The notes beneath the pieces were generated by a model. The model had not been told where the DNA came from. It ran no database searches and saw only the letters and a program-made list of their open reading frames with translations. From a virus, in IMG/VR virus record IMGVR_UViG_3300042691_012242, positions 1-27,648 of that record: a DNA stretch of 27,648 bases, one strand, 5' to 3'. How positions within the stretch are numbered: the stretch's first letter is position 1; every line of letters begins with the position of its first letter. The position numbers and the translations under genes are program-made. Positions 14,443-27,648 of this stretch are shown one piece after another.

Positions 14443-16104
14443 TTAAGACCAATTCGATGTGGCAACGCCAGAATTTCCTGCTGAGTTAGAGGCATACACA
14501 GTAAAATATGCCCACAATCCATTTCCAGAATTCATTGATTGAGTAAATGAAGTTCCTGTTGTGTTTCCGCTTGCTGTTGAATTAATAGTTCCACCGTTTG
14601 ATGAAGATTGATAAAGTGTCCAATAGTAAGTTATTGGGGTTGATCCAGTAGAGGCTGTCCATGTTCCAGTCCATGAAGGTCCAGTTGAGTATGTGTTAGT
14701 TGCATTTGTTGGAGTGCTTGGTGCGGTTGCACCTCCACCACCTGGGGCAGTCCAAGAAATGCTTTCTGTATCTGTGTGTCCAGTAGATGAGGTAACTGTT
14801 AATGAAATGCTATATGTTGTTCCAGCGGTATGTGTTCCAATATATTTTTGTCTATCTGCATCTGCTGTACCACTAAATGATGTTCCTCCTCCAGCGCCAC
14901 CAGTTGATGGACTTACAGACATTGACCAATAATCTTGATAGTCTACAGTCCAATTAACATATGTTAGCGTACCGCTATTTGTTACAGTTAAACTTCCTAT
15001 GGTTGGAACTAATGGGGTTACTGTCCATTGAGCATATAAAGTTTGAGATGAATTGGGAGAAAAGCTTGATCCAGCATCAACTATTTTAGATCCTCCAGAT
15101 GTATTATTCCACCATCCAGTACAAGTATATCCAGATCTTGTTGGTGTTGGTGCAGTAACTAAATCTCCAGAGTTTACAGAACTTGAAGTAGGAGAAACAG
15201 AGCCACCGTTAGCATTCCAAGAAATACTGTAAGTAATTATAGACCATTGTGCATACAAGGTAGTTGAGGATGTTGGGTAATATACTGATCCTCCGCCACC
15301 AACATAAGTTCCACCTGATGCTGCTGTATACCAACCTAAGAAAGCGTAATTAGTTCTACTTGGCGTAGGTAAAGAAATTCCTCCAGCATTTGTTCCGTTT
15401 GCAGATGTTGGTGAAACAGAACCACCGTTGGCATTAAAAGAAACAGAATACGATATAGCTGACCATTGTGCGTATATTGTTATATTTGAAGGTGGTGTAT
15501 AGTTGTTTCCAGTTGTACCTAAATATGTTCCTCCAGAAGTAGCAGTGTACCAGCCATTAAATGTGTGGTAATCTCTTGACGCACTTGGAAGTGAAACTGA
15601 TTGCCCAGCGGTAACAGTTGTAGAAGTTGAGGAATTTCCTAATACAATTCCTCCGTTAGCGTTATATGTTAATGTATAAGTTGATGCTTGAATTATTAAA
15701 CTATTTGATGTTGTAGATGGAGTTGGACCTCTACCATTGCTTACTGTAACTCTACATGTTATAGCATTACCGATATCTGCAGAAACCGTAACATACTGAT
15801 TTCCATTAGCGCCAGAAATATTTGAACCATTTCTTAGCCATTGATAGGCTGTAGTTGTGTATGAAAATGCTTTGTCGCTAGGAAAGCCTCTCCAGGTTCC
15901 ATCTGAAACTGTTAAGGTATTTCCTTGAATATTACTTCCTGTTATTGTTGGAGAGGTTATTAATACTGGATATTCTGGATACCACTGTCTCCATCCTGTA
16001 GATGTATTAACCCATCCTTTGGCAGCATCTTTCCATGCTCCATTAAAAACTTTTAGATTTTTGTATTCTTTCCAACTTGAGCCATTCCATATTCTGTTTG
16101 TCAT
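14443..16104 (-). CDS. Adhesin with Ig-like, three InlB B-repeat (Flg_new) and FN3-like domains
   Basis: A 553-residue protein. Residues 1-43 are Trp-rich with RIWNGSSWKEY and NGAWKDAAKGWVN. An Ig-like domain follows (about 46-139; TVSDGTWRGF to ITCRVTVSNGRG). Three InlB/Listeria-Bacteroides B-repeats occupy 142-214, 218-287 and 291-360, each opening like YTLTYNANGG and closing YAQW, with the internal LGWYTAASGGTYVG motif. A beta domain at about 365-455 and an FN3-like domain at about 460-553 complete it. Such arrays are usually extracellular binding or spacer modules on bacterial surface proteins. Here the gene sits between a collagen-like fibre and a LamG protein, so a virion adhesin is likely. 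A GAGG precedes ATG 16104 by about 8 bases. Confidence 0.8.
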   Translation of the reverse strand: MTNRIWNGSSWKEYKNLKVFNGAWKDAAKGWVNTSTGWRQWYPEYPVLITSPTITGSNIQGNTLTVSDGTWRGFPSDKAFSYTTTAYQWLRNGSNISGANGNQYVTVSADIGNAITCRVTVSNGRGPTPSTTSNSLIIQASTYTLTYNANGGIVLGNSSTSTTVTAGQSVSLPSASRDYHTFNGWYTATSGGTYLGTTGNNYTPPSNITIYAQWSAISYSVSFNANGGSVSPTSANGTNAGGISLPTPSRTNYAFLGWYTAASGGTYVGGGGSVYYPTSSTTLYAQWSIITYSISWNANGGSVSPTSSSVNSGDLVTAPTPTRSGYTCTGWWNNTSGGSKIVDAGSSFSPNSSQTLYAQWTVTPLVPTIGSLTVTNSGTLTYVNWTVDYQDYWSMSVSPSTGGAGGGTSFSGTADADRQKYIGTHTAGTTYSISLTVTSSTGHTDTESISWTAPGGGGATAPSTPTNATNTYSTGPSWTGTWTASTGSTPITYYWTLYQSSSNGGTINSTASGNTTGTSFTQSMNSGNGLWAYFTVYASNSAGNSGVATSNWS

Positions 16105-16106
16105 GG

Positions 16107-17861
16107 TTATGCCTCATGCTGTATATATATATCGCCTGTTGCTGTAGCTGTTGGTGGTGTAGCTGAAGTACCATAAAAAATTTTATTTCCGACTGCAGTC
16201 ATTCCATTAGAGTAAACATTAACGCTTCCAGGTCCTGTTGCGCCTGTTGCCCCTACTGGTCCAGTTGGTCCAGTTGCTCCTACTGAACCTTGTGGTCCAG
16301 TTGCTCCTGTTGGGCCAGCAACAGTGCTTGCTGTTCCACTAGCACCTGTTGCGCCAACTGGGCCTGTGGCACCAATTGGTCCTGTTGCACCTGTTGCGCC
16401 AACTGGGCCTGTGGCACCAGTGTCACCTTTATCTCCAGTTCTGGCAAAGGTGATTACTATGTCGTCATTATTACTGAATGTTGCTGCATTACCTGATACA
16501 TACGATCCAGATACAGTAAACCATCCAGTATTATCTGAAAGTCCAGATATTGTAAACAATGCAAAGACAGAATCATCGTTTTTCTTTGATACTCTAAAAT
16601 GTCCTTTAATTGTTGACGTAGAGTCATCAATTGTGTTTAAAAATGAGGATATATTTGTTGAAGAGTCATTTGATGAATCAATATACATTGCTGTAGCACT
16701 TGAAACTATTGCGTTATTAAATCTTACAAAACCCACTCCTGGATCTGCTGCTGTAATTGTTGTACTGTATGTGTAATCAAATGTTGCTCCGCCAAAGTTA
16801 CCAGCTGGACCTGTTGCACCTGTTGGGCCAGTTGCACCTACTCCTGTTGCACCTGTTGCACCTGTTGGGCCAGTTGCTCCTACTGGACCTGTTGCACCAA
16901 CTGGACCTGTTGCGCCTATTGCACCAACTGGACCTGTTGCGCCTGTTGCTCCAATTGGACCTGTTGCACCAACTGGACCTGTTGCGCCTGTTGCGCCAAT
17001 TGGGCCTGTTGCTCCATCTGGTCCAGTTGCACCAACATCACCTTGAATTCCCTGTACACCTGTTGCACCAATTGGACCTGTTGCACCAATTGAACCTGTG
17101 TTACCAACTGGACCCGTTGCTCCCGTTGCACCTATTTCGCCAATTGCACCTGTTGCACCTGTTGCTCCTGTTGCACCAACTGGCCCTGTTGCGCCAGTTG
17201 CACCAACTGAACCTGTTGCACCTACTGGACCTTGTAATGGTCCAACATTAATCCATTGTGATCCATCCCATATATGCAAATCTCCATCAATTACATAGCC
17301 ATCGCCAAGAGATCCTGTTAGTGGAAGTTCGGATACATTTGCTAAAGATCCTTTAATTGTAACGCCTGCACCTTGTGGACCAGTTGCGCCAGTTACACCT
17401 TGTGGTCCTGTTGCGCCTGTAGGTCCAATTGGACCTGTTGCACCTACTGTACCTGTAGCACCTGTTGCGCCAACATTTCCTTGAATACCTTGTAACCCTG
17501 TTGCACCTGTTGCGCCAACATTTCCTTGAATACCTTGTGGGCCAGTTACACCAGTAGGACCAACTGGACCTGTAGAACCTGTTGCACCAACTGGACCTGT
17601 AGAACCTGTTGCGCCTACTGGACCTGTTGCACCTGTTGGGCCAGTTGCTCCTGTTAATCCTTGAACGCCTGTAGCGCCTGTTGCACCAACTGGACCTGTA
17701 GCACCAACTGAACCAGTTGGTCCTGTTGCGCCTGTAGGTCCAGAATGTGTTTCTAAATAGTCATCTATCTGTTCAGCTAGTGTTTGTAAATCTGCTGGAA
17801 CATTTGGTGGATCTGTCTGTAGGGGATAATGAAAATTTAATCCCGATGTGCTAGGTGCCAT
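16107..17861 (-). CDS. Collagen-like tail fibre or spike protein
   Basis: A 584-residue protein. Residues 1-40 are a short N-terminal domain ([20 protein letters not shown]). Gly-X-Y repeats occupy about 41-163, 212-350 and 478-556. They are separated by a small domain at about 165-211 ([31 protein letters not shown]) and a beta domain at about 352-477 ([20 protein letters not shown] to [13 protein letters not shown]). The C-terminus is [19 protein letters not shown]. The dominant triplets are GAT, GPV, GPT and GPI: Pro is only in X, Thr mostly in Y. A triple-helical trimeric fibre is expected. There is no Shine-Dalgarno; TGG-TATAAT ends 7 bases before ATG 17861. The adjacent glycosyltransferase suggests Thr O-glycosylation, as known for BclA of Bacillus. 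Confidence 0.88.
16210..17750 (-). repeat. Gly-X-Y coding repeat region (9-base periodic DNA)
   Basis: Multiples of the nine- and eighteen-base unit encoding GAT-GPV/GPI recur, seen on the plus strand as ggacctgttgcaccaact-like runs. Two non-repeat stretches (about 17230-17370 and 16430-16805) interrupt it. Such DNA is prone to copy-number change, so fibre length may vary between related phages. Confidence 0.75.
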
Positions 17862-17868
17862 ATTTTTT

Positions 17869-17877
17869 ATTATACCA
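17869..17877 (-). promoter_or_regulatory. Extended -10 promoter TGGTATAAT, probably leaderless collagen-like mRNA
   Basis: The minus strand reads TGG TATAAT at the 3' end of the glycosyltransferase gene, 7 bases before ATG 17861. No -35 is recognisable. The start codon has no Shine-Dalgarno. This would uncouple fibre expression from that of the modification genes upstream. Confidence 0.55.
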
Positions 17878-18946
17878 TCTGGTGAGTTATAATATCTTCC
17901 TCATACCAGCCTTCCCCCCATAATTTTGACAAATTATAGAAGTATTTCTCATACTGATATTTTACAGTATCTACTGAATAAAGCGAAATTGCTCTATTTC
18001 TTATATACTCTGGGTTCAAGGATTTTACGTCCTCTGCCGCCTTGCAAAAATCTTCAAACATTCTACATCTATATCCTGTCTTTCCTTGCTCTACAGTCTC
18101 CGTAAATGCACCCCAGTCAGTTGTAATTACTGGAGTGCCGCAAGCCTGTGACTCAATATTAACATTGCCGAAAGGCTCAATGTACAATGTTGGAACAAAT
18201 GTGGCAATGGCATTACCCATAAGCTTTGCCCTTTCTTCTGGTCCAACTGGACCAACATACTCTCCGTATCCGCTAAATTCTCCAGGTCCAGCAACTATTA
18301 ATCTCTTACCAAGTTTTTCACAGACCTGTTGAGCAATTTTCCAACCTTTACGATCTATAAGTCTTCCTATAAAAAAATAATAATCTTCTTTTTCTTTTAC
18401 CAGCGGAAACATTTCTGGGTCTAAGTAGCCTGGAATCACAGCATCAAAAAAGTGGCCATCAGCTTCAGAAGCATTTTTATATTGTGAATATATTGAATGC
18501 ATCCAAGAATACGATTCAAATACTCTAAATTTACTAAATACTCCAGCGTAACCTACACCGAACTCAACAGATATCATTTCTGGAAAACTATCTGCAATTA
18601 TTTTTTGTGCACTTCCACCAATTAAACATATAAAATCTTTTTTGCCTGCACGTTTTTGTATTTCTCTAACAACGTTTGCATTAAATAGCATCCAATGTGG
18701 TTGTCTTGAATCGAAGGAGCCAGAAGTAAAGTGTTTACCTTTTAATGATTTAATTCTTTGCTCTTCTGTTATGCATGTAATTAATTCATCACAGTCTGCT
18801 TCATTTTGTTCTCCAGCATAAAGATAAACTGTATGACCTAACGATTTCATCATATTGCAAAATCTACGTACTTTTTCTGTATATGCACAATTAACAAAAT
18901 CTTTAGTTGTTTGTGTATGTGGCAAAGAAACTACATGGAATATCAA
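17870..18946 (-). CDS. GT4-like glycosyltransferase (GT-B fold)
   Basis: A 358-residue enzyme, expected to transfer sugar from a nucleotide-sugar donor. The N-terminal domain begins [20 protein letters not shown]. The donor-binding C-terminal domain shows [18 protein letters not shown] (Arg195, Lys200), [15 protein letters not shown] and [20 protein letters not shown], containing the E-x7-E motif (Glu257, Glu265) of retaining GT4 enzymes. The start is TTG at 18946, immediately after the preceding TAG; AAAGGA lies about 12-14 bases upstream. It has no signal peptide or membrane segment and is therefore cytoplasmic. It lies last in the modification cassette and directly before the collagen-like fibre, the obvious candidate acceptor. 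Acting on host glycans or another virion protein cannot be excluded. Confidence 0.85.
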
Positions 18947-19498
18947 CTAGACCCAGTATCCTTTTGCAATGTATCGAGAGTTATTTCTTGCAATACCTTC
19001 TTCAATTTTAAAGTCTGAAGGAGCAATAATTATACTTCCAGCCTCTGGTTTAAATGAAGGTTTACCTTGGACTGTAACTTCTCCGCCGTCAAAAGAACTA
19101 TTTATATATAATGTTGCTGTATATTTACTGCTTGATACTGAATCTTGATAAAACTTTTCACTATCAATTTTTTTAACAAAATACGACGTGTCTAAATTTA
19201 CGTCTTCTGTTATATTGTTAAAAATTTTATATTGACTAAAACAATGATGAAATGTAGCTTTTAAATTATTGACTAGAAATAAAGTTCTTCCATCTATTGG
19301 TTTTTGCTCATTTGAAAAGTCTGAGGAAAAACTTTTTTCAGCCCCCCATTCAGTTGGCTTCCAATTACTTATCAAATTATGTCTTGATGGATCAGACTCT
19401 GTTTCTTCAATAAATTTTATATAATTGCCAATTTCTTGTAAACAATACGTAAAGTAAAAAACTTTCGGAGAAAGTTCTTGAAAAACATACATTGCCAT
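18947..19498 (-). CDS. Degenerate 2OG-Fe(II) oxygenase-like protein, probably non-catalytic
   Basis: A 183-residue protein with the scaffold of its neighbours: the opening VFQELSPKVFYFTYCLQEIG, then LYINSSFDGGEVTV in place of LNDDYEGGELSF, then FKPEAGSIIIAP and a final SRYIAKGYW. The metal site is lost. The HxD position reads Tyr-Gln-Asp (117-119), and the distal His segment SHTAHLxKSG reads DFKIEEGIARN. Only the candidate 2OG-binding Arg175 remains. It is also shorter than its paralogues (219-286 residues). It has a weak Shine-Dalgarno (AGAAAGA) and starts 12 bases after the preceding gene. It may be a binding or regulatory pseudoenzyme partner, or a decaying copy; the intact frame favours retention. 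Confidence 0.7.
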   Translation of the reverse strand: MAMYVFQELSPKVFYFTYCLQEIGNYIKFIEETESDPSRHNLISNWKPTEWGAEKSFSSDFSNEQKPIDGRTLFLVNNLKATFHHCFSQYKIFNNITEDVNLDTSYFVKKIDSEKFYQDSVSSSKYTATLYINSSFDGGEVTVQGKPSFKPEAGSIIIAPSDFKIEEGIARNNSRYIAKGYWV

Positions 19499-19510
19499 TT
19501 TTTTATCTTT

Positions 19511-20227
19511 CTATGCTGGTACAAAAACGCCGTCTACGTATTGACCTTTGTTAAGCCAAAATGAGGGAACCATATACTTGTTTCCGCTTTTAATCAGATG
19601 TGCCGTGTGGCTATATGGATCTGTTGAAGGGAAAATAACAACACTTCCTGCCTCTGGTTTTATTCCAAACATGGTTCTTTGTCTATTTCTTTCATCGTTA
19701 AAGTCTTCTATGGCAGCATAGTCAGAGCCAGTTAGAACTCCATCTTTAACATTAAATGATAGCTCGCCACCTTCATAGTCGTCATTAAGATACATAACCA
19801 ATGAATATCTTAGTCTTTTATCGCCTTCTTGCTGGTCAAAATGAGAGCCCATAAATGTACCTGGCATATATTTTTTAACTGCTGTATCGGTCATTAAAAT
19901 TATTTTTGCATCATCGTCTACCTGTTTTGCGTAATCTTCGCAAACCCTTTTCATGCCGTCAAAAATTTGATTATAAATATACTTAGCATCATCCAATATA
20001 TCTTCTTTACAATTTTTTGTTATTTGGTCCAATGACAAACATTTTATTCTTTTGTGTTCTCCATAAATATACATTTCTCCACTACAAGCTGACCACTCTT
20101 CCCAGCTTGTTATAAAGCTTGAAAAATTATCAGATTGTGTAGACTCGATTAGGTCTACCAATTTTTTAGGATCCTCTAGTACATTTTTGTAATAATATAC
20201 CTTGTCAAAAAGTTTTTCTGCTATCAT
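19511..20227 (-). CDS. 2OG-Fe(II) dioxygenase, prolyl-hydroxylase-like (6)
   Basis: A 238-residue double-stranded beta-helix enzyme. The iron triad is His129-x-Asp131 in MGSHFDQQEG and His207 in YSHTAHLIKSG, with Lys217 as the candidate 2OG-binding residue. The family signature LNDDYEGGELSF (residues about 148-158) and IKPEAGSVVIFP are intact. It is most like the preceding gene (20261-21070), sharing the SHTAHLxKSG and the DGVxTG insert, and so is probably a tandem duplicate. It has AGGAGG before ATG 20227 and its own extended -10 promoter (20251-20243). Reaction class is confident; substrate unknown. A neighbouring repeat protein is the favoured candidate. Confidence 0.85.
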   Translation of the reverse strand: MIAEKLFDKVYYYKNVLEDPKKLVDLIESTQSDNFSSFITSWEEWSACSGEMYIYGEHKRIKCLSLDQITKNCKEDILDDAKYIYNQIFDGMKRVCEDYAKQVDDDAKIILMTDTAVKKYMPGTFMGSHFDQQEGDKRLRYSLVMYLNDDYEGGELSFNVKDGVLTGSDYAAIEDFNDERNRQRTMFGIKPEAGSVVIFPSTDPYSHTAHLIKSGNKYMVPSFWLNKGQYVDGVFVPA

Positions 20228-20242
20228 ATTTCCTCCTAGTAA

Positions 20243-20251
20243 ATTATACCA
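20243..20251 (-). promoter_or_regulatory. Extended -10 promoter TGGTATAAT in the dioxygenase cluster
   Basis: The minus strand reads TGG TATAAT in the 33-base gap before ATG 20227, which is preceded by AGGAGG. It is identical to the motif before the collagen-like gene and would let genes 6, 7 and the glycosyltransferase be expressed apart from the upstream dioxygenases. Confidence 0.5.
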
Positions 20252-20260
20252 TTTTCAAAA

Positions 20261-21070
20261 TTATTTAAAAAGATCTTCTTTGTCTGGATAAACAAATTCT
20301 GGTTGCCAATTTGGATCTTGCTTAAATAATGCATCTTCTCCATTTGGATCTATCCAAAACATAGGAAGCATATACTTCCATCCTGATTTAACTAAATGTG
20401 CAGTATGGCTAAATGGTGAAGGTGATGGGAATATCACTATGCTTCCAGCCTCTGGTTTTATATAAAAATCAAACTTTCCTTCGTTTTCTGGATGAAGCAA
20501 ATCATCTTCTAGTGCCTCTGTAGTTCCAGTCACAACTCCATCTCTAATGCTAAATGAAAGTTCTCCACCTTCATAATCATCATTTGGCCAAACAACCAAG
20601 GAGTAAAGAAGTCTTGTATCTCCTTCTTGAGAGTCATGGTGGACCCCCATATAGTTACCAGACCTATATCTATGGACACCAAACTGCTCCAATAAAATTA
20701 AATCTCTATCTATATTCTGTTCCCGCTTATAGTCTTCACATACAGCCCTAACAGCATTAAACAATGGGTCTCTTATTTTTATGAAAAGTTCTTTTGCTTC
20801 ATCAGAAACATCTTTATCTATATTATAAACATTATTCAGCAAACAGAGCTTTTTATACCCGTAAACATATGGGTGTCCCATAGATCTATTAGAATCGACG
20901 TCCCATTGATTCCAGGGGGTAAGAAGTGGAAACATTTCTGGATGATTTTCAGAATCATTTACTGCGTCTAGCCACTCTTTCACATTAGGAATAGCATTTC
21001 TGTAATAATAAACTTGAGGATGCAGTTCTTCTCTAATCATTCCATTATCTAATACAGTTGTTTTTGTCAT
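20261..21070 (-). CDS. 2OG-Fe(II) dioxygenase, prolyl-hydroxylase-like (5)
   Basis: A 269-residue enzyme with an intact iron site: His144-His145-Asp146 (HxD, in YMGVHHDSQEG) and His222 in FSHTAHLVKSG, with Lys232 as likely 2OG ligand. WPNDDYEGGELSF and IKPEAGSIVIFP are typical of the cluster. It has a C-terminal extension of about 30 residues rich in Trp, Pro and Asp (ALFKQDPNWQPEFVYPDKED) not seen in the next copy. Its N-terminus (EELHPQVYYYRNAIPN) parallels the opening of the other copies. The start lies 1 base after the preceding stop. Closest in the window to 19511-20227. Confidence 0.85.
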   Translation of the reverse strand: MTKTTVLDNGMIREELHPQVYYYRNAIPNVKEWLDAVNDSENHPEMFPLLTPWNQWDVDSNRSMGHPYVYGYKKLCLLNNVYNIDKDVSDEAKELFIKIRDPLFNAVRAVCEDYKREQNIDRDLILLEQFGVHRYRSGNYMGVHHDSQEGDTRLLYSLVVWPNDDYEGGELSFSIRDGVVTGTTEALEDDLLHPENEGKFDFYIKPEAGSIVIFPSPSPFSHTAHLVKSGWKYMLPMFWIDPNGEDALFKQDPNWQPEFVYPDKEDLFK

Positions 21071-21071
21071 T

Positions 21072-21833
21072 TTAATTGTTGCCTCCCACTTTAAGTGCTA
21101 CTTCTTTTTTATCGGTTTGATCTGGTCCTGGGAGCATTCTTTCTCCACGCTCTTTCATCTCTGCCCACTTTGCAGCATCATCTGCCTGCCTCTTTCTTTG
21201 CTCAGCAATATCTTCTTCCCAAAGTGCTCTTTTTGCCTCATCATATTCTGCCTCTTCATTATCCCAAAATGATCCTATGGTCCATCTTTCTCCTTTAGTT
21301 ACCATTTGTACTTCATGAATGTTGTGATGCCCGCCATTAAATGCTACCAGCATTCCAGTTTTAGGCTGAATGGTAATATCATGATCTCTAAAATTTAAAG
21401 CTCCGCCTTCAAAATCATCATTTAGATATAGAAATGCTGCCCACTTACTTCTTTCAAAGGAATTATACTCGACAGAATCTATCGCAGTGTTATCAGAATG
21501 GAATCCCGCATAAGCACCTTCCACCCATTTTTGGCAATGGTAACTTACTAGTTTAACTGGCTTGCCCCTGCATATAGCAGTACCTTCTTGAATTTTATCT
21601 TGTAATACTGTAAAAAAATCTGATGGTAAATTAAAATTTAATTTATCTTCATCATCTGGTAGATTGGACGCAAATGAGTCATAAAATGAAATAGGGTCCC
21701 ACTGTAAAGTGCCTTTATCTGTAGAATGCTCCCAATATTTCAATATATTGCTACACTCTTCTTCAGTAAGAAAGTTTTCAAAAATTAAAACATCTTCTTT
21801 AATTCTTGTTTGGCTGTCTAAGTTGTATGTCAT
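21072..21833 (-). CDS. 2OG-Fe(II) dioxygenase, prolyl-hydroxylase-like (4)
   Basis: A 253-residue enzyme with HxD at His112-x-Asp114 (AGFHSDN), distal His173 (NIHEVQMV) and Arg183 (GERWTIGSFW) as the 2OG ligand. The N-terminal part (RIKEDVLIFENFLTEEECSN) resembles the canonical P4H-type opening, with a bind-and-cover helix. LNDDFEGGALNF and IQPKTGMLVAF follow the cluster pattern. Beyond the catalytic core, residues about 192-253 form a highly charged Glu/Lys/Arg/Ala-rich helix that the others lack, perhaps for protein contact. It overlaps the preceding gene by ATGA. Confidence 0.85.
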   Translation of the reverse strand: MTYNLDSQTRIKEDVLIFENFLTEEECSNILKYWEHSTDKGTLQWDPISFYDSFASNLPDDEDKLNFNLPSDFFTVLQDKIQEGTAICRGKPVKLVSYHCQKWVEGAYAGFHSDNTAIDSVEYNSFERSKWAAFLYLNDDFEGGALNFRDHDITIQPKTGMLVAFNGGHHNIHEVQMVTKGERWTIGSFWDNEEAEYDEAKRALWEEDIAEQRKRQADDAAKWAEMKERGERMLPGPDQTDKKEVALKVGGNN

Positions 21834-22690
21834 TGTATCCTCTCTGCTGTTTCAGAAATTTTTGCATAGTCAAGTGGTTGATATGCTCCGCTATTTATAC
21901 CTTCTTTAATTCTACCACGCTCTATTTCCGCCCAAGCATCTTTTCCATAAATTTGTTCTTGCTTTAGCCATTCTTCGGAACCCTCATAAAATCTCTGCCA
22001 ATGATTTCTTATAAAGTATTTTGGTTTTCCATATGTCTTTCTTACTCCATGTCTATAAAGCTCTCCTGGCTCCGACAAATAGTTTGGATCACCTGCTGGA
22101 AAAACTAAAACGTCACCAGCTTTAGGCTTATAATAAAATAGTTTATTTTCTCCTACAAGGAAATCTACTCCGCCACCATCATAATCGTCATTAAGATACA
22201 TAGTTGCAGTAACAGTAAATTTATACCCTCTATTGTTTTCATACTCAACTTGATAATCTGTATGCATATGCATCGCTAAATCAAAAATATTATCATCTAT
22301 TCCAGATTCAATTTCATACTTACATATTGAAGGCCCCATCATTTGCCACAATTTCATATCTTTTTGCTCTACATCATTATGAACAATTTTATCTTTTTCT
22401 ATTGGAACGTTATGTATTTCTGAATAATGTTGCGTTGTTGAATAAAATACATTAACAACGTCTTCCCACATTTCTTTTTCTGTTCTAGTTCTGTCATTAT
22501 CTGGCTTTCCGTCAAAATTTAACATATTAACTTCTTTGCCAAATGTGTACCAGCCTTTCCAATCACTCAAGATTGATCCTTCTGGATTTGTTTCGGATTC
22601 AATTATAGTTTTTGTAAGAAGGTTTATGTCTTTAAATGGATTGCTATACACAAAAATTTTTGGGTATATTTCTTTATACTCTAAAGTCAT
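21830..22690 (-). CDS. 2OG-Fe(II) dioxygenase, prolyl-hydroxylase-like (3)
   Basis: ATG 22690 is preferred: it overlaps the upstream stop as ATGA and has GGGAG about 11 bases upstream. A GTG six codons earlier is an alternative. The protein has 286 residues. The HxD is His143-x-Asp145 (MHMHTDYQVE), the distal His is His214 (YRHGVRKTYG), and Lys224 or Arg228 likely contacts 2OG. The signature LNDDYDGGGVDF is slightly altered (GGG for GGE). It also has KPKAGDVLVFP. The C-terminal about 50 residues (WQRFYEGSEEWLKQEQIYGK) are Trp/Glu-rich and helical. Confidence 0.85.
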   Translation of the reverse strand: MTLEYKEIYPKIFVYSNPFKDINLLTKTIIESETNPEGSILSDWKGWYTFGKEVNMLNFDGKPDNDRTRTEKEMWEDVVNVFYSTTQHYSEIHNVPIEKDKIVHNDVEQKDMKLWQMMGPSICKYEIESGIDDNIFDLAMHMHTDYQVEYENNRGYKFTVTATMYLNDDYDGGGVDFLVGENKLFYYKPKAGDVLVFPAGDPNYLSEPGELYRHGVRKTYGKPKYFIRNHWQRFYEGSEEWLKQEQIYGKDAWAEIERGRIKEGINSGAYQPLDYAKISETAERIQ

Positions 22691-23391
22691 TGTTGCACTG
22701 GCTCCCACTTTTTATTTCCAGTGTGTTCTAATATTTGCCAGAAAAATGGGGAGGTAAATCTTCCTCCTGATATAATCGGCCTTACTCCGTGGACATACCA
22801 TCTATCTCCTGGGAAAAAGTATGCTGACCCAGCAACTGGTTTAAATTCTATACCCTGTACTGGAAAAAATAGTTCTCCGCCTTCATAGTCATCGTTAAAG
22901 TAAAATAATGAAGCTATATCATAATGTGGAAAATCATTTGGGGTTCCAGCATCTGGCCCCTCGTGCAATTCTTTATCTGCGTGAGGATCTTGTCTTGTAC
23001 CAACTGGCCATCTCACTATTGCTGGTCCAGTTGCCTGAACCTTTACTCCAAAAAATTGTTCTACCTCTATCTGTAATCTAGAAATTAATCCTTCAACAAC
23101 ATCTACAATTTTTGGGTCATCCGATATTTCCATTGACATTCTGGTACACACTCTGTCTGCCCACGCATTTGCGTCATATATCACAGTGCCATTTTCATTT
23201 TTATGAGAATTTGTTATGTCCCAAGTCTGATTGGTCTGAGCAAATTTTGTTAATCTTTCCTTTTCCCAATCAAGAAGAAAGTTTGGAAGCTCAACTATAT
23301 TGCTAGCATCTTTACCAAAAAACCCTGAAGGAGTTATTGACCCAAGGGATCTGTAGTCGTGTGTGTTGTTTGTGTTAACCTGTCTTTGCAT
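22687..23391 (-). CDS. 2OG-Fe(II) dioxygenase, prolyl-hydroxylase-like (2)
   Basis: A 234-residue enzyme. The HxD is His137-x-Asp139 (RQDPHADKEL), the distal His is His201 (WYVHGVRPI), and Arg211 (GGRFTSPFFW) is the 2OG ligand. The sequence YFNDDYEGGELFF and FKPVAGSAYFFPGDR matches the cluster. The N-terminal segment (IVELPNFLLDWEKERLTKFA) has the arrangement of the P4H superfamily. The gene lies after the two DUF6065-like genes, starting in a TAATG overlap. With Arg211 rather than Lys it groups with copies 3 and 4 more than with 1, 5 and 6. Confidence 0.86.
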   Translation of the reverse strand: MQRQVNTNNTHDYRSLGSITPSGFFGKDASNIVELPNFLLDWEKERLTKFAQTNQTWDITNSHKNENGTVIYDANAWADRVCTRMSMEISDDPKIVDVVEGLISRLQIEVEQFFGVKVQATGPAIVRWPVGTRQDPHADKELHEGPDAGTPNDFPHYDIASLFYFNDDYEGGELFFPVQGIEFKPVAGSAYFFPGDRWYVHGVRPIISGGRFTSPFFWQILEHTGNKKWEPVQQ

Positions 23392-24110
23392 TATTTATAT
23401 TTCCTTTTTGACCAGAACAATTTTTTATAGACGCCACCTTCAGTGGTTCTAAATGTATCTGAAGTTTCTCTAGTCTTTTTTGCAATATCTTGCGGACTAT
23501 GAAACAATACTTCTGATTCCCAGTCTTCTCTCTTAAATGGAATTATTTGCAAATATGGGGTTCCAGCTGGAACTGTCCCAGTAAATCCTTCTTTTAAGAA
23601 AAAGGGTATAAGCCCAGAAGTAGTAACCTTATCACTGTCTATTATACCACCCACGGTAATCCACGGCAATTCAAAATGATTTATCGGAGGAACATATATA
23701 GAACTATATCCATCTGGTAACTCTGGAGCCCAATTTGCATACCAATGAAAATGCCATGAACTACATCCAATTGGAGTTTTAAAATCTTGCATAGGCGGTC
23801 TTTCTCCAACAAAATCATCAAATCCTATTGGAACCTTAACCCTTACTCTGCCATTTTTTTCATAAAATTCTAAGTCGCATGGTGTGACAAGCATGTAGCC
23901 AGTTTGAAATGTATCCAGTACTGCTGGGCATGCCTTAAAACTAAACATTTTTCCTTCGCCGTTAAAGTTTGCTACTGGATTTCCTAGTGGGTCTTTTACA
24001 AATGTATCTGAGTCTTCCCACCATTTAGGTAAAGTTTTTCTAGAAGTTATTGGAACAGTAGATTCTTTGTTATAATGTTTATTCGAATGAAATATTATTT
24101 TTTTTGTCAT
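23391..24110 (-). CDS. DUF6065-like protein, second paralogue
   Basis: A 239-residue protein. It has recognisable beta-sheet segments, IGCSSWHFHWYANWAPELPD and EGFTGTVPAGTPYLQIIPF, ending in a Lys/Arg-rich tail (FWSKRKYK). Its late part aligns by eye with the upstream gene (ITIPANTPVISVLPI against GTVPAGTPYLQIIPF), so the two are paralogues. I believe both belong to the uncharacterised phage/bacterial family DUF6065, but this is from memory and unchecked. It overlaps the preceding gene by ATGA and the following one by TAATG, so it is translated with the dioxygenases. A role in the same modification pathway is inference from operon position. Confidence 0.55.
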   Translation of the reverse strand: MTKKIIFHSNKHYNKESTVPITSRKTLPKWWEDSDTFVKDPLGNPVANFNGEGKMFSFKACPAVLDTFQTGYMLVTPCDLEFYEKNGRVRVKVPIGFDDFVGERPPMQDFKTPIGCSSWHFHWYANWAPELPDGYSSIYVPPINHFELPWITVGGIIDSDKVTTSGLIPFFLKEGFTGTVPAGTPYLQIIPFKREDWESEVLFHSPQDIAKKTRETSDTFRTTEGGVYKKLFWSKRKYK

Positions 24111-24823
24111 TTAATACCACACTGTTCTGGACCATCAACAATATTTAATCTTAAAACTTTTACTTCATGATCTCCAATTTTATTTCCCTTATAATCAACA
24201 GCATCTCTATAAAAATTAGTCCACTCACCTTTTTTATTTATTTCTGAGACAATTTTCCCGTAATCAGCATCTGGGAAAAAGTTAGAAGGCAACTCGGACA
24301 TGTTTTTAATTACACCCTGTGAATTATTAATATCTGACAAAGAGATTGGTAAAACTGAAATAACTGGCGTATTTGCTGGTATGGTTATAACTTCATTAGC
24401 TTTAGTTATTCTCCATGCTACTGGAAACTCTCCTGCAAAAAATGATGTGCTTATTAAAATAGTAAAAGGCCATACACCTTCTATTGGCCAATTTGGTGTA
24501 GGCATTGCCATCATGCTTAAATTTTCTTTTGTTCTTAAGATTAAACCTGTTTTAAAACTAATTGTGGCATTTGATCTTCCAGTGTAAACATATTTATGTC
24601 CACTTAATACTTTAACATGTGTGTCTGTAGAGTCAGAAATCCCGTCCCATATGAAACTTATATCTTCTGGAAAAGATATCCCCCACCCTAAACCATTTGA
24701 CAGTGTTACTGGAAAACAATGATATGCATGCTTGTCAAAAGTTTCTTCCATCCATTGTCTTTTAATTCCAAGAGGTTTTATTTCAGCAGAATATGGACTT
24801 GCTTTGTATATCTCAAATTCCAT
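24107..24823 (-). CDS. DUF6065-like protein, first paralogue
   Basis: A 238-residue protein with HCFPVTLSNGLGWGISFPED near residues 35-55 and NEVITIPANTPVISVLPI near 145-162, features I associate with DUF6065; the association is from memory. A mostly beta, cupin-like fold is plausible, but there is no clear HxD or metal triad. It has no signal peptide. It begins 2 bases after the first dioxygenase stop and has no Shine-Dalgarno, so it is probably translationally coupled. Being embedded between dioxygenases, and duplicated, suggests a partner or substrate-presenting role. Confidence 0.55.
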   Translation of the reverse strand: MEFEIYKASPYSAEIKPLGIKRQWMEETFDKHAYHCFPVTLSNGLGWGISFPEDISFIWDGISDSTDTHVKVLSGHKYVYTGRSNATISFKTGLILRTKENLSMMAMPTPNWPIEGVWPFTILISTSFFAGEFPVAWRITKANEVITIPANTPVISVLPISLSDINNSQGVIKNMSELPSNFFPDADYGKIVSEINKKGEWTNFYRDAVDYKGNKIGDHEVKVLRLNIVDGPEQCGIK

Positions 24824-24825
24824 TA

Positions 24826-25485
24826 TTAATATGTGTCTTTTATAGATTTATCAGACATAAACTGTCTATAAAATTGCTCGTTATGTGTTGCATCATTATA
24901 ATCTGTCATTGTTACTATTGAATATTTTATGCCAGATTTTACTGGTAATGCAGCATGAGAAAATAAATAATTTGATGGGAATATATATAGGTCTCCCGCT
25001 TTTGGCTTAATTGTTTTATCTATTTTGTCAAACCTTATTCCGCCCTCTTCATAATCATCATTAATATATGCAACCATTGATACTGTTGAAATGTAAGACC
25101 ATCCATGGTCTGAATGATATGAGAAGTGTTGCCCAGGACCATACTTAACAAAGTTCATAGCTTCCCAGTATTTCATCTCAATATTATAAAATGAACAATA
25201 ATCATCCAAAGCTATCTTTTGTGCGTCATGAACATCCTGCCAAATTTTGTCAAATTCTTTTTGCTGATCATCTTTGCCTGGGTAATCAAAATATTTTAAT
25301 TTAAAATCAACACAATCTCTATACTCAGGAAGCTTTTCCCTGTATCCAACTGTAGCATCTTGCCAATTGTAAAATCCATGACTATCTTTAATATTAGACT
25401 CAAGTCTATTTATTATATCCAGTTCTGACTTAATAACATCTCTATATACCCATAACCCAGGAAACAATTCTTCTTTTTCATACAT
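24826..25485 (-). CDS. 2OG-Fe(II) dioxygenase, prolyl-hydroxylase-like (1)
   Basis: A 219-residue enzyme from ATG 25485 (MYEKEELFPGLWVYRD); this start overlaps the upstream gene by 8 bases and has GGAG 8 bases before it, unlike the longer frame start at 25527. The iron site is His124-x-Asp126 (SYHSDHGWS) and His177 (LFSHAALPVKSG), with Lys187 as 2OG ligand. INDDYEEGGIRF and IKPKAGDLYIFP are close to the family. It is the first dioxygenase of the cluster, next to the small Cys-rich gene, and is more divergent in its N-terminal half than copies 5 and 6. Confidence 0.85.
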   Translation of the reverse strand: MYEKEELFPGLWVYRDVIKSELDIINRLESNIKDSHGFYNWQDATVGYREKLPEYRDCVDFKLKYFDYPGKDDQQKEFDKIWQDVHDAQKIALDDYCSFYNIEMKYWEAMNFVKYGPGQHFSYHSDHGWSYISTVSMVAYINDDYEEGGIRFDKIDKTIKPKAGDLYIFPSNYLFSHAALPVKSGIKYSIVTMTDYNDATHNEQFYRQFMSDKSIKDTY

Positions 25486-25717
25486 CTTCTTTACTCCATT
25501 TTCCAATAGGACATTCAGCTTCAGCAAGTTGAACTTTTAATGGCATTATGCATCCACATTTTTCACATCGTTTTGTTATCTTGTAAAACTCACAAGATTC
25601 GCAAATTTTTAATCTTTCGTTAGGCAAATTTTCATCAATAGTATACCTATCTGGATCTAACAAATGCCATGGTCTAGAGTTTCCTAAAGACTTTTTCCAG
25701 TCTTCCCATTTAGACAT
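25478..25717 (-). CDS. Small Cys-rich protein, probable zinc ribbon
   Basis: A 79-residue protein beginning MSKWEDWKKSLGNSRPWHLL. An in-frame TTG at 25768 would lengthen it, but the ATG at 25717 leaves a 14-base gap after the previous stop and starts where such phage proteins usually start. Cysteines at residues 39, 42, 51, 54, 56 and 69 (KICESCEFY, RCEKCGC, AECPIGKW) form a compact metal-binding pattern. I recall similar proteins in cyanophages and other aquatic phages, often near 2OG dioxygenases; function is not established. No Shine-Dalgarno is seen. It could be a structural zinc protein or a partner for the dioxygenase it overlaps. Confidence 0.65.
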   Translation of the reverse strand: MSKWEDWKKSLGNSRPWHLLDPDRYTIDENLPNERLKICESCEFYKITKRCEKCGCIMPLKVQLAEAECPIGKWSKEDV

Positions 25718-25731
25718 ATTAAAGATTCTTA

Positions 25732-26220
25732 CTATGCAGTAGGAGAGCTCCAAGAAGAGCCGTTCCAAATCATTCCAAGTGAAACAATTCCATCGGACTC
25801 CTCTATTTTCCTAAATGATACGTCATTGGTAAACGCTGCGTCAAATTTAATAGATTGAGGTGAATTTGACTGTGTCATGGAAATATAAAAAACTTCATTT
25901 GCCTTTAATAATGCATAAGCACTTATTGGCAATCCGTCTGAATCTATTGTTGGCTGACCATTAGATAGCTCTACTGGTAAATCGGCACGAGGAGATGCTG
26001 GCAAAGTAAATTCGCTTCCGTTCCAAATAGAACCTCTTAATAATGAAGTTTTACCAGTAGCATTTATTCCAGAAATTAGTTGTCCACTAGACAAGGCTTC
26101 GTCGAATCTAGAGACCACAGAACTCTGTTGCTGATCTGAATCATCTAATCTTATTATAAAAAATACCTCATGAGTGTTTTCTGCAATTTTAGTCATAAAT
26201 GCGTATTTGTGTATTGTCAT
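25732..26220 (-). CDS. Small repeat protein with two WNGS motifs
   Basis: A 162-residue protein that I do not recognise as a family. It has AAGGAG 4 bases upstream of ATG 26220 and a near-consensus promoter directly ahead. The middle contains LLRGSIWNGSEFTLP and the end contains LGMIWNGSSWSSPTA, a two-copy Trp-Asn-Gly-Ser module. The same motif opens the InlB-repeat protein (RIWNGSSWKEY), with a related IWDGSQW in the collagen-like protein. Segment LLKANEVFYISMTQSNSPQS resembles virion-associated beta proteins. No signal peptide or catalytic motif is seen. A small fibre-associated protein is the best guess, but it could be a cassette-specific accessory. Confidence 0.5.
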   Translation of the reverse strand: MTIHKYAFMTKIAENTHEVFFIIRLDDSDQQQSSVVSRFDEALSSGQLISGINATGKTSLLRGSIWNGSEFTLPASPRADLPVELSNGQPTIDSDGLPISAYALLKANEVFYISMTQSNSPQSIKFDAAFTNDVSFRKIEESDGIVSLGMIWNGSSWSSPTA

Positions 26221-26267: not shown

Positions 26268-27041
26268 TTAATATCCACAGTTGCAATACCAGCCAGATCC
26301 AAAATATGGAGCCGTACATCTAGGTCCACAGCTTGAACCAACGAAGTGTGGTGGGAAGAACGGTGGGAAGAATGGTGGGAAGAACGGTGGGAAGAACGGT
26401 GGGAAGTGTGGTGGGGTAAATGTTTGAATTGCTGCTGTTGTTCCTGCAGCTGATTCTCCATTAGCATTTGATGCAAAAACTGTATAACTTTCATCTGCAG
26501 TTGCATCTGGTAATGTCGGATCTGCTGTATCAAATGGAGAAGTAGCACTTGAACTTAGTAATCCACGCAAGCTTGAATTAACTCTATATGATGAAATTGC
26601 TTTACCGCCAGTTGATGGTGGGTTCCAGGTAACTCTGTCGTTTCCTGAAGGAATTGCTCCACCATGAGGTCCAGAATTTACAGTTGGAGATGGCGCTGCT
26701 GGTACAGTAGTTATTCTAACTGTATTTGAATTTCTTGCAGCTGAAGATCCAGCATTATTAGAAGCTACTATAGTAAAAGTATAATCTGTATCAGACAATA
26801 ACCCTGTAAAAGTCAGAGATGTGCTTGCTGTAGTTTGAGTAGTTGTTGCAGGAGTTGATGTAATTGTATAAAGAGTAGCTGGAGGAGAAGCTGCTGGCAA
26901 AGTCCAAGATAGGGAGGCAGCGCCATTATTAAACGGCCTATTTGTTCCAATATCTGTAGCAATAAAATTTTCTACTGGATTCGGCTCTAAGAAGTTATCT
27001 TGTGCTGAAGACTTTATGCCTTTTCTTTTGTTAATTGCCAT
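26268..27041 (-). CDS. FN3-domain protein with FPPF tract and Cys-rich C-terminus
   Basis: A 257-residue protein with AGGAG before ATG 27041. The N-terminus MAINKRKGIKSSAQDNFLEP precedes two fibronectin-III-like domains at about 20-112 (TSLTFTGLLSDTDYTFTIVA) and 116-208 (ISSYRVNSSLRG, ATADESYTVFASNANGESAA). Residues 209-233 are an FPPF-type repeat (HFPPFFPPFFPPFFPP). The last 24 residues contain Cys 238, 242, 253 and 255 (GSSCGPRCTAPYF, YCNCGY). FN3 domains are common in phage tail-tip and fibre proteins. The Pro/Phe and Cys tip could be a host-contact or crosslinking module. It follows another fibre-like gene, so a virion role is likely. Confidence 0.75.
   Translation of the reverse strand: MAINKRKGIKSSAQDNFLEPNPVENFIATDIGTNRPFNNGAASLSWTLPAASPPATLYTITSTPATTTQTTASTSLTFTGLLSDTDYTFTIVASNNAGSSAARNSNTVRITTVPAAPSPTVNSGPHGGAIPSGNDRVTWNPPSTGGKAISSYRVNSSLRGLLSSSATSPFDTADPTLPDATADESYTVFASNANGESAAGTTAAIQTFTPPHFPPFFPPFFPPFFPPFFPPHFVGSSCGPRCTAPYFGSGWYCNCGY
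26347..26418 (-). repeat. Six-unit 12-base tandem repeat encoding FPPF
   Basis: On the plus strand the 12-base unit aacggtgggaag (with variants aat- and tgt-) repeats five to six times from 26347, encoding Pro-Pro-Phe-Phe units on the minus strand. Near-identity of the units at the DNA level indicates recent slippage or recombination, unlike the protein-level repeats elsewhere. Confidence 0.85.
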
Positions 27042-27058: not shown

Positions 27059-27648
27059 TTAAGCTGTTAAATCACCCATCAATACCCAAGTATTTGCTGC
27101 TCTCTTAAACAATGTTGCTGAAGACCATTGTGCTCTAAGCTTATTTCCTGGAGTATGATTTAATGTTGTAGTTGCTGGGGTAGCTGCAGCAATTGTTACT
27201 GCGCCACTTCCTACTCTTAGAAGATCTATAGAAGTTCCGATTGGGAAATTTACAGATGCATCTGTTGGTATAGAAATTGTTAATGCGCTTGAAGAATTTA
27301 CTTCAATCATCTTATCTCTATCTGTCAATACTAATGTATAATCTGCTGTTTTTGAATCAACAGTGGTTCTTGACGGAACACCCTCTTTTGTTTGTGTACC
27401 ATCTGTAAATGCGATTCCAGATGCCGCTACGGTAACTGTACCTGTAAAGGTTGGGGAAGCAAGGTTTGCTTTTAAGTCCAACGCTGTCTGCGTTGCAGTT
27501 GATACTGGCTTATTAGCGTCAGAGGTATTATCAACGTTACCTAAACCGACCATTGACTTAGTGATTCCAGATACTGTACCAGTAAATGTAGGTGAAGCAG
27601 TAGGTGCCTTGGCATCTAATTGTGTTTGAATTGATGAGGTTACTCCAT
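27059..27648 (-). CDS. Tail-fibre-like repeat protein (C-terminal part; start beyond window)
   Basis: The frame is open to the window edge, so only the last about 196 residues are visible and the ATG at 27553 is probably internal. Two fibre-type repeats are present: QLDAKAPTASPTFTGTVSGI and ALDLKANLASPTFTGTVTVA, linked by MVGLGNVDNTSDANKPVSTA. These are typical of phage tail fibres and related surface-attached proteins. The C-terminal region (RTTVDSKTADYTLVLTDRDK, SALTISIPTDAS, LRAQWSSATLFKR, NTWVLMGDLTA) is a beta domain common at the ends of such proteins. It is the first gene of the adhesin/modification region in transcription order here. Confidence 0.8.
   Translation of the reverse strand, partial: GVTSSIQTQLDAKAPTASPTFTGTVSGITKSMVGLGNVDNTSDANKPVSTATQTALDLKANLASPTFTGTVTVAASGIAFTDGTQTKEGVPSRTTVDSKTADYTLVLTDRDKMIEVNSSSALTISIPTDASVNFPIGTSIDLLRVGSGAVTIAAATPATTTLNHTPGNKLRAQWSSATLFKRAANTWVLMGDLTA

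Follow-up and report, generated by a model that had tools for sequence, protein, structure and literature searches.

Why would a tailed phage maintain a run of six intact and one degenerate 2-oxoglutarate (2OG)-Fe(II) oxygenases beside its structural genes? We addressed this question in a 27.6-kb virus contig (IMG/VR record IMGVR_UViG_3300042691_012242, positions 1 to 27,648), which in its full length we call the window, and in which features were called by Pfam matches at curated cut-offs and by PHROG profile matches. A preliminary description of this DNA had read the run as part of a dedicated system for modifying virion fibre proteins, and the position of the cassette, in the structural region beside tail genes and with fibre and repeat genes nearby, agrees with that idea. 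It made no mention of what we consider the most telling feature, an FPP-repeat tail on the FN3 protein encoded just upstream. We hold with moderate confidence that the most likely function of the cassette enzymes is to hydroxylate this FFPP tail on a tail-associated fibre protein, because the nearest solved relatives of the enzymes are prolyl hydroxylases and because, among the repeat proteins, the FFPP protein alone shows a constant and specific link to them. All genes of interest in the window lie on the minus strand, and those on which this reading turns are, in gene direction:

26268-27041, minus strand: FN3 protein (PF00041) with a C-terminal FPP-repeat tail, the proposed substrate
24826-25527, minus strand: OX1, intact 2OG-Fe(II) oxygenase (PF13640), core member; H138, D140, H191 and K201 in 35/35 orthologues
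24107-24823, minus strand: DUF6065 protein (a) (PF19541, E 4e-30), core member with a predicted trimeric-dUTPase-like fold
23391-24110, minus strand: DUF6065-like protein (b) (phrog_7084), with the dUTPase-motif-like stretches GIIDSD and GTPYLQIIPF
22687-23391, minus strand: OX2, intact oxygenase (PF13640), core member; triad and Arg in 34/34
21830-22708, minus strand: OX3, intact oxygenase (PF13640); triad and Lys in 33/33
21072-21833, minus strand: OX4, intact oxygenase (PF13640); triad and Arg in 33/33
20261-21070, minus strand: OX5, intact oxygenase (PF13640); triad and Lys in 23/24, one row being gapped at the distal His and the Lys
19511-20227, minus strand: OX6, intact oxygenase (PF13640); triad and Lys in 33/33
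18947-19498, minus strand: OX7, conserved pseudoenzyme of the same fold family; triad lost, homologous to OX6

The run itself is as the preliminary description had it: OX1-OX6 pass the curated PF13640 cut-off (over 27 bits), the seventh protein lacks the iron site, and all seven genes share one strand. It does not consist of oxygenases only, however, as two DUF6065-type genes that had been missed lie between OX1 and OX2. In OX1-OX6 the HxD...H triad and a Lys or Arg ten residues later are invariant wherever the residues are present (24-35 distinct orthologues per group), and the median ratio of nonsynonymous to synonymous substitution rates (dN/dS) is 0.06-0.15 for OX1-OX7. Because these residues are invariant in six intact groups, the gene order is kept and dN/dS is low, chance is excluded as the origin of the run. 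The best solved relatives of the oxygenase profile are prolyl 3-hydroxylase 1 (P3H1), the bacillus and chlorella-virus prolyl 4-hydroxylases (P4H) and PKHD enzymes. Hydroxylase chemistry is family knowledge for such oxygenases, and peptidyl-proline hydroxylation is the activity that we would predict for those of the cassette; the choice of proline follows the same family knowledge, and Phe, His or Tyr would be the alternative residues.

OX7 has no Pfam match and a weak one to the PHROG 2OG family (E 7e-5), but it aligns strongly with the OX6 profile (hhalign probability 100, E 1e-39). The full triad is found in 0/24 orthologues, the 2OG-type Arg is retained in 24/24, and the median dN/dS of 0.067 indicates strong purifying selection. 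Judged by its sequence, OX7 is a homologous member of the fold family and not an active one. Because of its homology to OX6 and its low dN/dS, we regard it as a conserved pseudoenzyme and not as a decaying copy. Recent decay was considered and ruled out, OX7 being intact in 24 distinct orthologues at that dN/dS.

A tree of 118 proteins places OX1, OX2, OX3, OX4, OX5 and OX7 each on one side of a branch, while the OX6-type genes need three changes; the multiplication of the enzyme is therefore old, with the copies maintained separately. Other lineages hold four or five oxygenases, and OX5 and OX7 mark one lineage. The suggestion in the preliminary description that specificity is divided among the enzymes fits such ancient, separately conserved paralogues, even if the correlation between oxygenase number and repeat type that also speaks to it (see below) carries no correction for phylogeny. 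The same history bears on a proposal made for cyanophages rich in 2OG enzymes (PMC3037559), namely that these enzymes tune the 2-oxoglutarate or nitrogen metabolism of the host. We consider this highly improbable here: a single enzyme would do, and the ancient separate paralogues, the conserved pseudoenzyme, DUF6065 and the link to FFPP would be left unexplained. Moreover, nothing points to a cyanobacterial host, the major capsid protein (MCP) being nearest to those of Streptomyces phages. We note that a few relatives encode one more oxygenase near LamG; it lies on the other strand and has diverged deeply from OX1 (L015/L016 12.8-17.1 kb; L017:10282).

The FN3 tail of the window reads PPHFPPFFPPFFPPFFPPFFPP, and the underlying tandem repeat (26350-26406, period 12 nt) lies within the FN3 gene. 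Among relatives the C-terminus is a tandem (F/H/Y)FPP, with the unit FFxPPx in some, and the length of the tail ranges from ~20 to 160 residues. When the repeat was compared at a lag of 12, the third-position excess was mild (0.25 vs 0.17-0.19), which is weak support for selection on the repeat. The FN3-FFPP protein itself matches tail families weakly, and in one relative (L022) a tail-fibre gene that encodes an Mtd_N domain precedes its gene. No isolated-phage match to the FN3 protein was found at E 1e-5, in a search in which low-complexity filtering may hide the tail itself. Some FN3-FFPP proteins carry an additional C-terminal Hint (intein/hedgehog)-like domain after the repeat (L123:7005-8666; L126:7855-9261; L138:7823-9163), with weak Pfam support (PF07591 E 0.005, PF13403 E 0.05), and for this domain self-cleavage or attachment are possible roles. 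We also observed a second FFPP-type tail on another gene of the same contig (L051:17748-18260; L092:742-3123), which suggests that the FFPP repeat is a transferable module.

The link between tail and enzymes was approached from both ends. On the FFPP side, viral contigs were sampled with a degenerate DNA pattern for FFPPFFPP, independently of oxygenases, and contigs sampled with a collagen pattern or with a DNA-polymerase (polB) motif served as controls; the FFPP-side counts are those of a sample and hold among the matches listed. Among the 59 FFPP loci whose tail is recognisable and which extend at least 3 kb downstream, an oxygenase occurs within the next 5 kb downstream in 53, and 43 of the loci hold at least three. 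With either side considered, an oxygenase was present for 74/99 FFPP matches compared with 2/104 for collagen (Fisher p 9e-31) and 0/49 for polB (2e-20), with relatedness uncorrected in both p values. Whole records told the same story, PF13640 occurring in 39/40 of the FFPP set, usually in 5-11 copies, and in 2/40 and 1/40 of the collagen and polB sets, respectively.

From the other side, a search with OX1 returned 58 viral loci and a search with DUF6065 extended the set, so that the oxygenase/DUF6065 cassette is syntenic in more than 100 viral loci. The order OX1-DUF6065(a)-(b)-OX2-OX3-OX4-(OX5)-OX6-(OX7) is kept, between the FN3 gene and LamG/portal. In 54 non-redundant complete cassettes, from which all companion counts were taken, the FN3 gene lies upstream in every case with at least 1.5 kb of room (37/37), and a LamG-type protein is present in 50/54. 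The preliminary description had named oxygenases without a repeat or fibre gene nearby as evidence that would speak against it, and these loci are of the opposite kind. More broadly, a tail-type open reading frame is found in 115 of the 128 oxygenase loci with more than 600 bp upstream, the remaining 13 having less than 1.9 kb there. Oxygenase number varies with the type of repeat: loci with six or more oxygenases (OX7 included) have FFPP units only (27 vs 0), whereas those with four or five have both unit types (7 vs 14; p 2e-7, kinship ignored). One hit lies in a bacterial-genome record, a Chitinophagaceae metagenome-assembled genome (L066), which has this phage-like cassette too; the contig is probably viral and misbinned.

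The cassette is not confined to one kind of phage. The MCP of the window is 61-62% identical to those of Streptomyces phages of the Stanwilliamsviridae, with an identical portal-protease-MCP order, although the GC content of 34-40% is unlike what that kinship might suggest, and the host is probably a low-GC, aquatic organism. The capsid family of the window (phrog_1623) occurs in 18/40 FFPP records among the matches listed. Two other records (G063 and G058) encode a clear contractile tail sheath and no phrog_1623 capsid protein, and they have FFPP tails together with OX1, OX2-type and DUF6065 genes; no tail sheath was found in the long first-group records tested. The second set comprises six loci, two with a clear sheath, two with weak sheath matches and two of unassigned type. 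Each of the six encodes an OX1 orthologue, all of which fall into one supported clade, together with an OX2-type orthologue (join 92/87), and DUF6065 is encoded next to OX1 or near it. FFPP tails are present in the second-set proteins read (L187, L175 and L202). From this content we conclude that the common core is made up of the FFPP protein, OX1, DUF6065 and OX2; the remaining oxygenases differ between the two groups. The genetic link between FFPP tails and oxygenases is thus seen in both directions and in two phage groups. In second-group cassettes, a carbamoyltransferase and sulfotransferase-looking proteins (identified by eye only) lie between oxygenases (L211:3985-5430; L175:6805-7593).

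It is against this core that another explanation should be judged, that the oxygenases serve to build or modify a glycan, lipid or small molecule and that the tail is an adhesin in its own right, sharing an exchangeable region with them. PF13640 is a chemically broad family, a carbamoyltransferase accompanies some second-group loci, and the 2OG genes of cyanophage S-SCSM2R sit within a cluster for glycosyltransferases and sugar modification. The core shared by both phage groups, however, holds no sugar gene, such genes being sporadic, and the link to FFPP is very specific. We consider this explanation unlikely, if deserving of attention.

The other genes around the cassette are:

27059-27553, minus strand: tail-fibre-like piece, before the FN3 gene in gene direction
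25478-25768, minus strand: small Cys-rich DUF6171 protein (PF19668, E 1e-6), in many loci a frequent but not constant neighbour
17870-18946, minus strand: GT4-type glycosyltransferase (GT; PF00534, phrog_3408), sporadic companion
16107-17861, minus strand: collagen-like fibre (PF01391), sporadic companion
14443-16104, minus strand: InlB/Listeria-type repeat protein (PF09479), sporadic companion, with GT and collagen in L061/L062
12087-14018, minus strand: LamG-domain protein (PF13385), near-constant downstream neighbour

In gene direction the window thus runs from the tail-fibre-like piece through the FN3 protein, a small protein and the DUF6171 protein to OX1, DUF6065(a) and DUF6065-like (b), and then from OX2 through OX3, OX4, OX5, OX6 and OX7 to GT and collagen; the InlB-type repeat protein, two small genes and the LamG protein come next, followed by portal, protease and MCP. 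The GT4 enzyme and collagen after the oxygenases, and the FN3, InlB and LamG proteins nearby, had all been named in the preliminary description and were all recovered by Pfam or PHROG. Its emphasis on collagen and GT did not survive comparison with other loci, collagen being present in 5/54 complete cassettes by a strict Gly-X-Y test and GT in 2/54, alongside the rarity of PF13640 in collagen-sampled records noted above. A looser collagen profile marks more loci at the same place, and Pfam Collagen is found in 5/40 whole records of the OX1-sampled set.

That the enzymes mainly hydroxylate the collagen-like fibre (with the InlB and LamG proteins), and that GT then glycosylates it, is nevertheless an idea with some appeal, since these genes adjoin the oxygenases in the window and in L061/L062 and collagen is a known P4H substrate. 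Collagen P4H prefers proline in the Y position, and over the 110 GXY triplets of the window collagen there are 34 Pro in X and 0 in Y, with Thr in 64/110 Y positions. A Y position rich in Thr is common among bacterial collagens, and the P4H of Bacillus anthracis can act on the X-position Pro of (PPG)n (PMC8968730). The cassette is unaltered where collagen is absent, and neither the constant linkage of enzyme to collagen nor the Y-position Pro that would mark a collagen-modifying P4H system was found. We therefore think it improbable that the collagen-like fibre is what the enzymes mainly act on, and on distribution and GXY composition collagen and GT were rejected as the main target. The FFPP-repeat tail of the FN3 protein is the better substrate candidate.

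The DUF6065 proteins are harder to place. An AF2 (AlphaFold2) model of DUF6065(a) is of moderate quality (pLDDT 74.6, pTM 0.74), with a poor C-terminus. Its top Foldseek matches are all trimeric dUTPases (best E 3e-4), and dUTPases also come top in VIA with Z 9-11 (best Z 11.0, rmsd 2.6, 123 aligned), so that a trimeric-dUTPase-like fold is predicted. Sequence profiles A1 and A4 gave no dUTPase match among solved dUTPases even at E 10. DUF6065-like (b) is related to (a) (hhalign E 1e-4); its invariant residues are D158, G183-T184-P185 and Q188, in stretches that resemble, by eye only, dUTPase motifs III and IV, and a halovirus homologue of (b) matches DUF6065 weakly. DUF6065(a) had no match among 50,697 isolated-phage records at E 1e-5. 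In Halorubrum tailed phage 7 (L444, KC292021.1 26718-27608) the DUF6065-type gene adjoins thymidylate synthase and polB, and haloarchaeal tailed viruses with a DUF6065-type gene have no annotated oxygenases near it. This neighbourhood fits a nucleotide-related ancestry of DUF6065. Our guess is that DUF6065 here is a trimeric accessory factor.

Both the predicted fold and the halovirus neighbourhood would also suit a role of the cassette in nucleotide or DNA modification, given that dUTPase-fold proteins handle pyrimidine nucleotides, 2OG enzymes oxidise bases and a GT could glycosylate the product. We rate the chance of this as slim. The oxygenases match P4H, P3H and PKHD relatives, no TET/JBP family appeared among Pfam matches to E 0.1 (HMMER filters drop weaker ones), the cassette lies in the structural region away from replication genes, GT is mostly absent, and the link to FFPP would be left unexplained.

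If the FFPP tail is indeed the substrate, the cassette might work as follows. The FN3 protein, a late-operon, tail-associated protein presumably co-transcribed with the cassette and present in the virion, bears the tandem (F/H/Y)F-Pro-Pro tail. With O2, Fe(II) and 2-oxoglutarate, OX1-OX6 would hydroxylate residues of the tail, prolines being the likeliest, either ahead of virion assembly or in the course of it, and the separate paralogues may divide residues or repeat units among them. OX7, having kept the fold without the iron site, would probably be a partner or substrate-holding subunit, and the DUF6065 pair would probably be an accessory binding or trimeric scaffold factor.

Several observations sit less comfortably with the FFPP tail as the hydroxylated substrate. 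At ~22 residues, the tail in the window is short. A contig that is identical in the compared genes has a 70-residue tail (L007:2184-3101), and the 48-residue difference may reflect either natural (fast) change in repeat length or an assembly effect or collapse. When the FFPP loci were grouped by single linkage at 75% nucleotide identity, an oxygenase lay within 5 kb in 12 of the 21 clusters that could be tested, and the raw count therefore partly reflects relatedness; the clustered set still gave p ~1e-9 against the collagen control, which stayed unclustered. A few FFPP contigs have no nearby oxygenase, and it is hard to see what a dUTPase-like fold would contribute to protein hydroxylation. 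Finally, in cyanophage ACG-2014h 2OG genes directly follow tail-fibre genes without an FFPP-type tail, indicating that this enzyme class can act elsewhere.

Viral prolyl hydroxylases, phage 2OG genes and tail fibres with collagen are already known. A survey of viruses from the Baltic Sea counted prolyl 4-hydroxylase among their most abundant auxiliary genes and stated that its viral use 'remains cryptic' (PMC9301287). What the present analysis adds is a specific candidate substrate for viral prolyl hydroxylases, with a link seen from both sides and with controls. It also brings forward a 2OG paralogue that is conserved though non-catalytic, proposes a fold for DUF6065 and describes a repeat protein of unusual Phe/Pro make-up. 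The open-licence literature that we searched yielded nothing on DUF6065 and FFPP, or on a multi-enzyme cassette with a pseudoenzyme, DUF6065 and an FFPP partner. Whether we are looking at a previously undescribed phage system, in which a set of specialised oxygenases, accompanied by a dead paralogue and by partners of dUTPase fold, heavily modifies a low-complexity, Phe/Pro-rich FFPP polymer into a hydroxylated fibre in at least two distinct groups of tailed phages, is close to an even call, and we put it forward tentatively. Should this be correct, phages modify a repeat fibre post-translationally by means of several enzymes, and the system would be a phage counterpart of the hydroxyproline-rich structural proteins of plants and animals.

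Among known systems, the Stanwilliamsviridae (e.g. Mildred21) share head-gene order and MCP with the window, but the corresponding region of Mildred21 has no oxygenase cassette or FFPP tail. T4-like cyanophages (phrog_61; PMC3037559) have several PF13640-type genes per phage, two of them directly after tail-fibre genes in ACG-2014h, yet the stretches examined hold no FFPP tail and a different function has been proposed. The P4H-type enzyme of Bacillus anthracis, considered for collagen-like proteins (PMC8968730) and close in our profile search (3ITQ/5HV0), is a single enzyme, whereas the phage cassette is without collagen as a constant partner. The P4H of chlorella virus PBCV-1 (PDB 5C5T/5C5U, of which we take 5C5T to be the PBCV-1 enzyme) has the same PF13640/P4H-type fold and is among the best solved relatives of the oxygenases. 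Its peptide substrates are said to be Pro-rich repeats. Activity on viral peptides has been reported for it (Eriksson et al. 1999, as relayed in PMC9301287). PBCV-1 is an algal virus with one such enzyme, unlike the tailed phages described here, which combine six with a pseudoenzyme, DUF6065 and an FFPP-repeat partner. For the pseudoenzyme, the closest parallel may be vertebrate P3H1, the best solved match. P3H1 works with non-catalytic partners, and the pairing of a catalytic 2OG enzyme with a non-catalytic partner is, by analogy, the role that we would propose for OX7.

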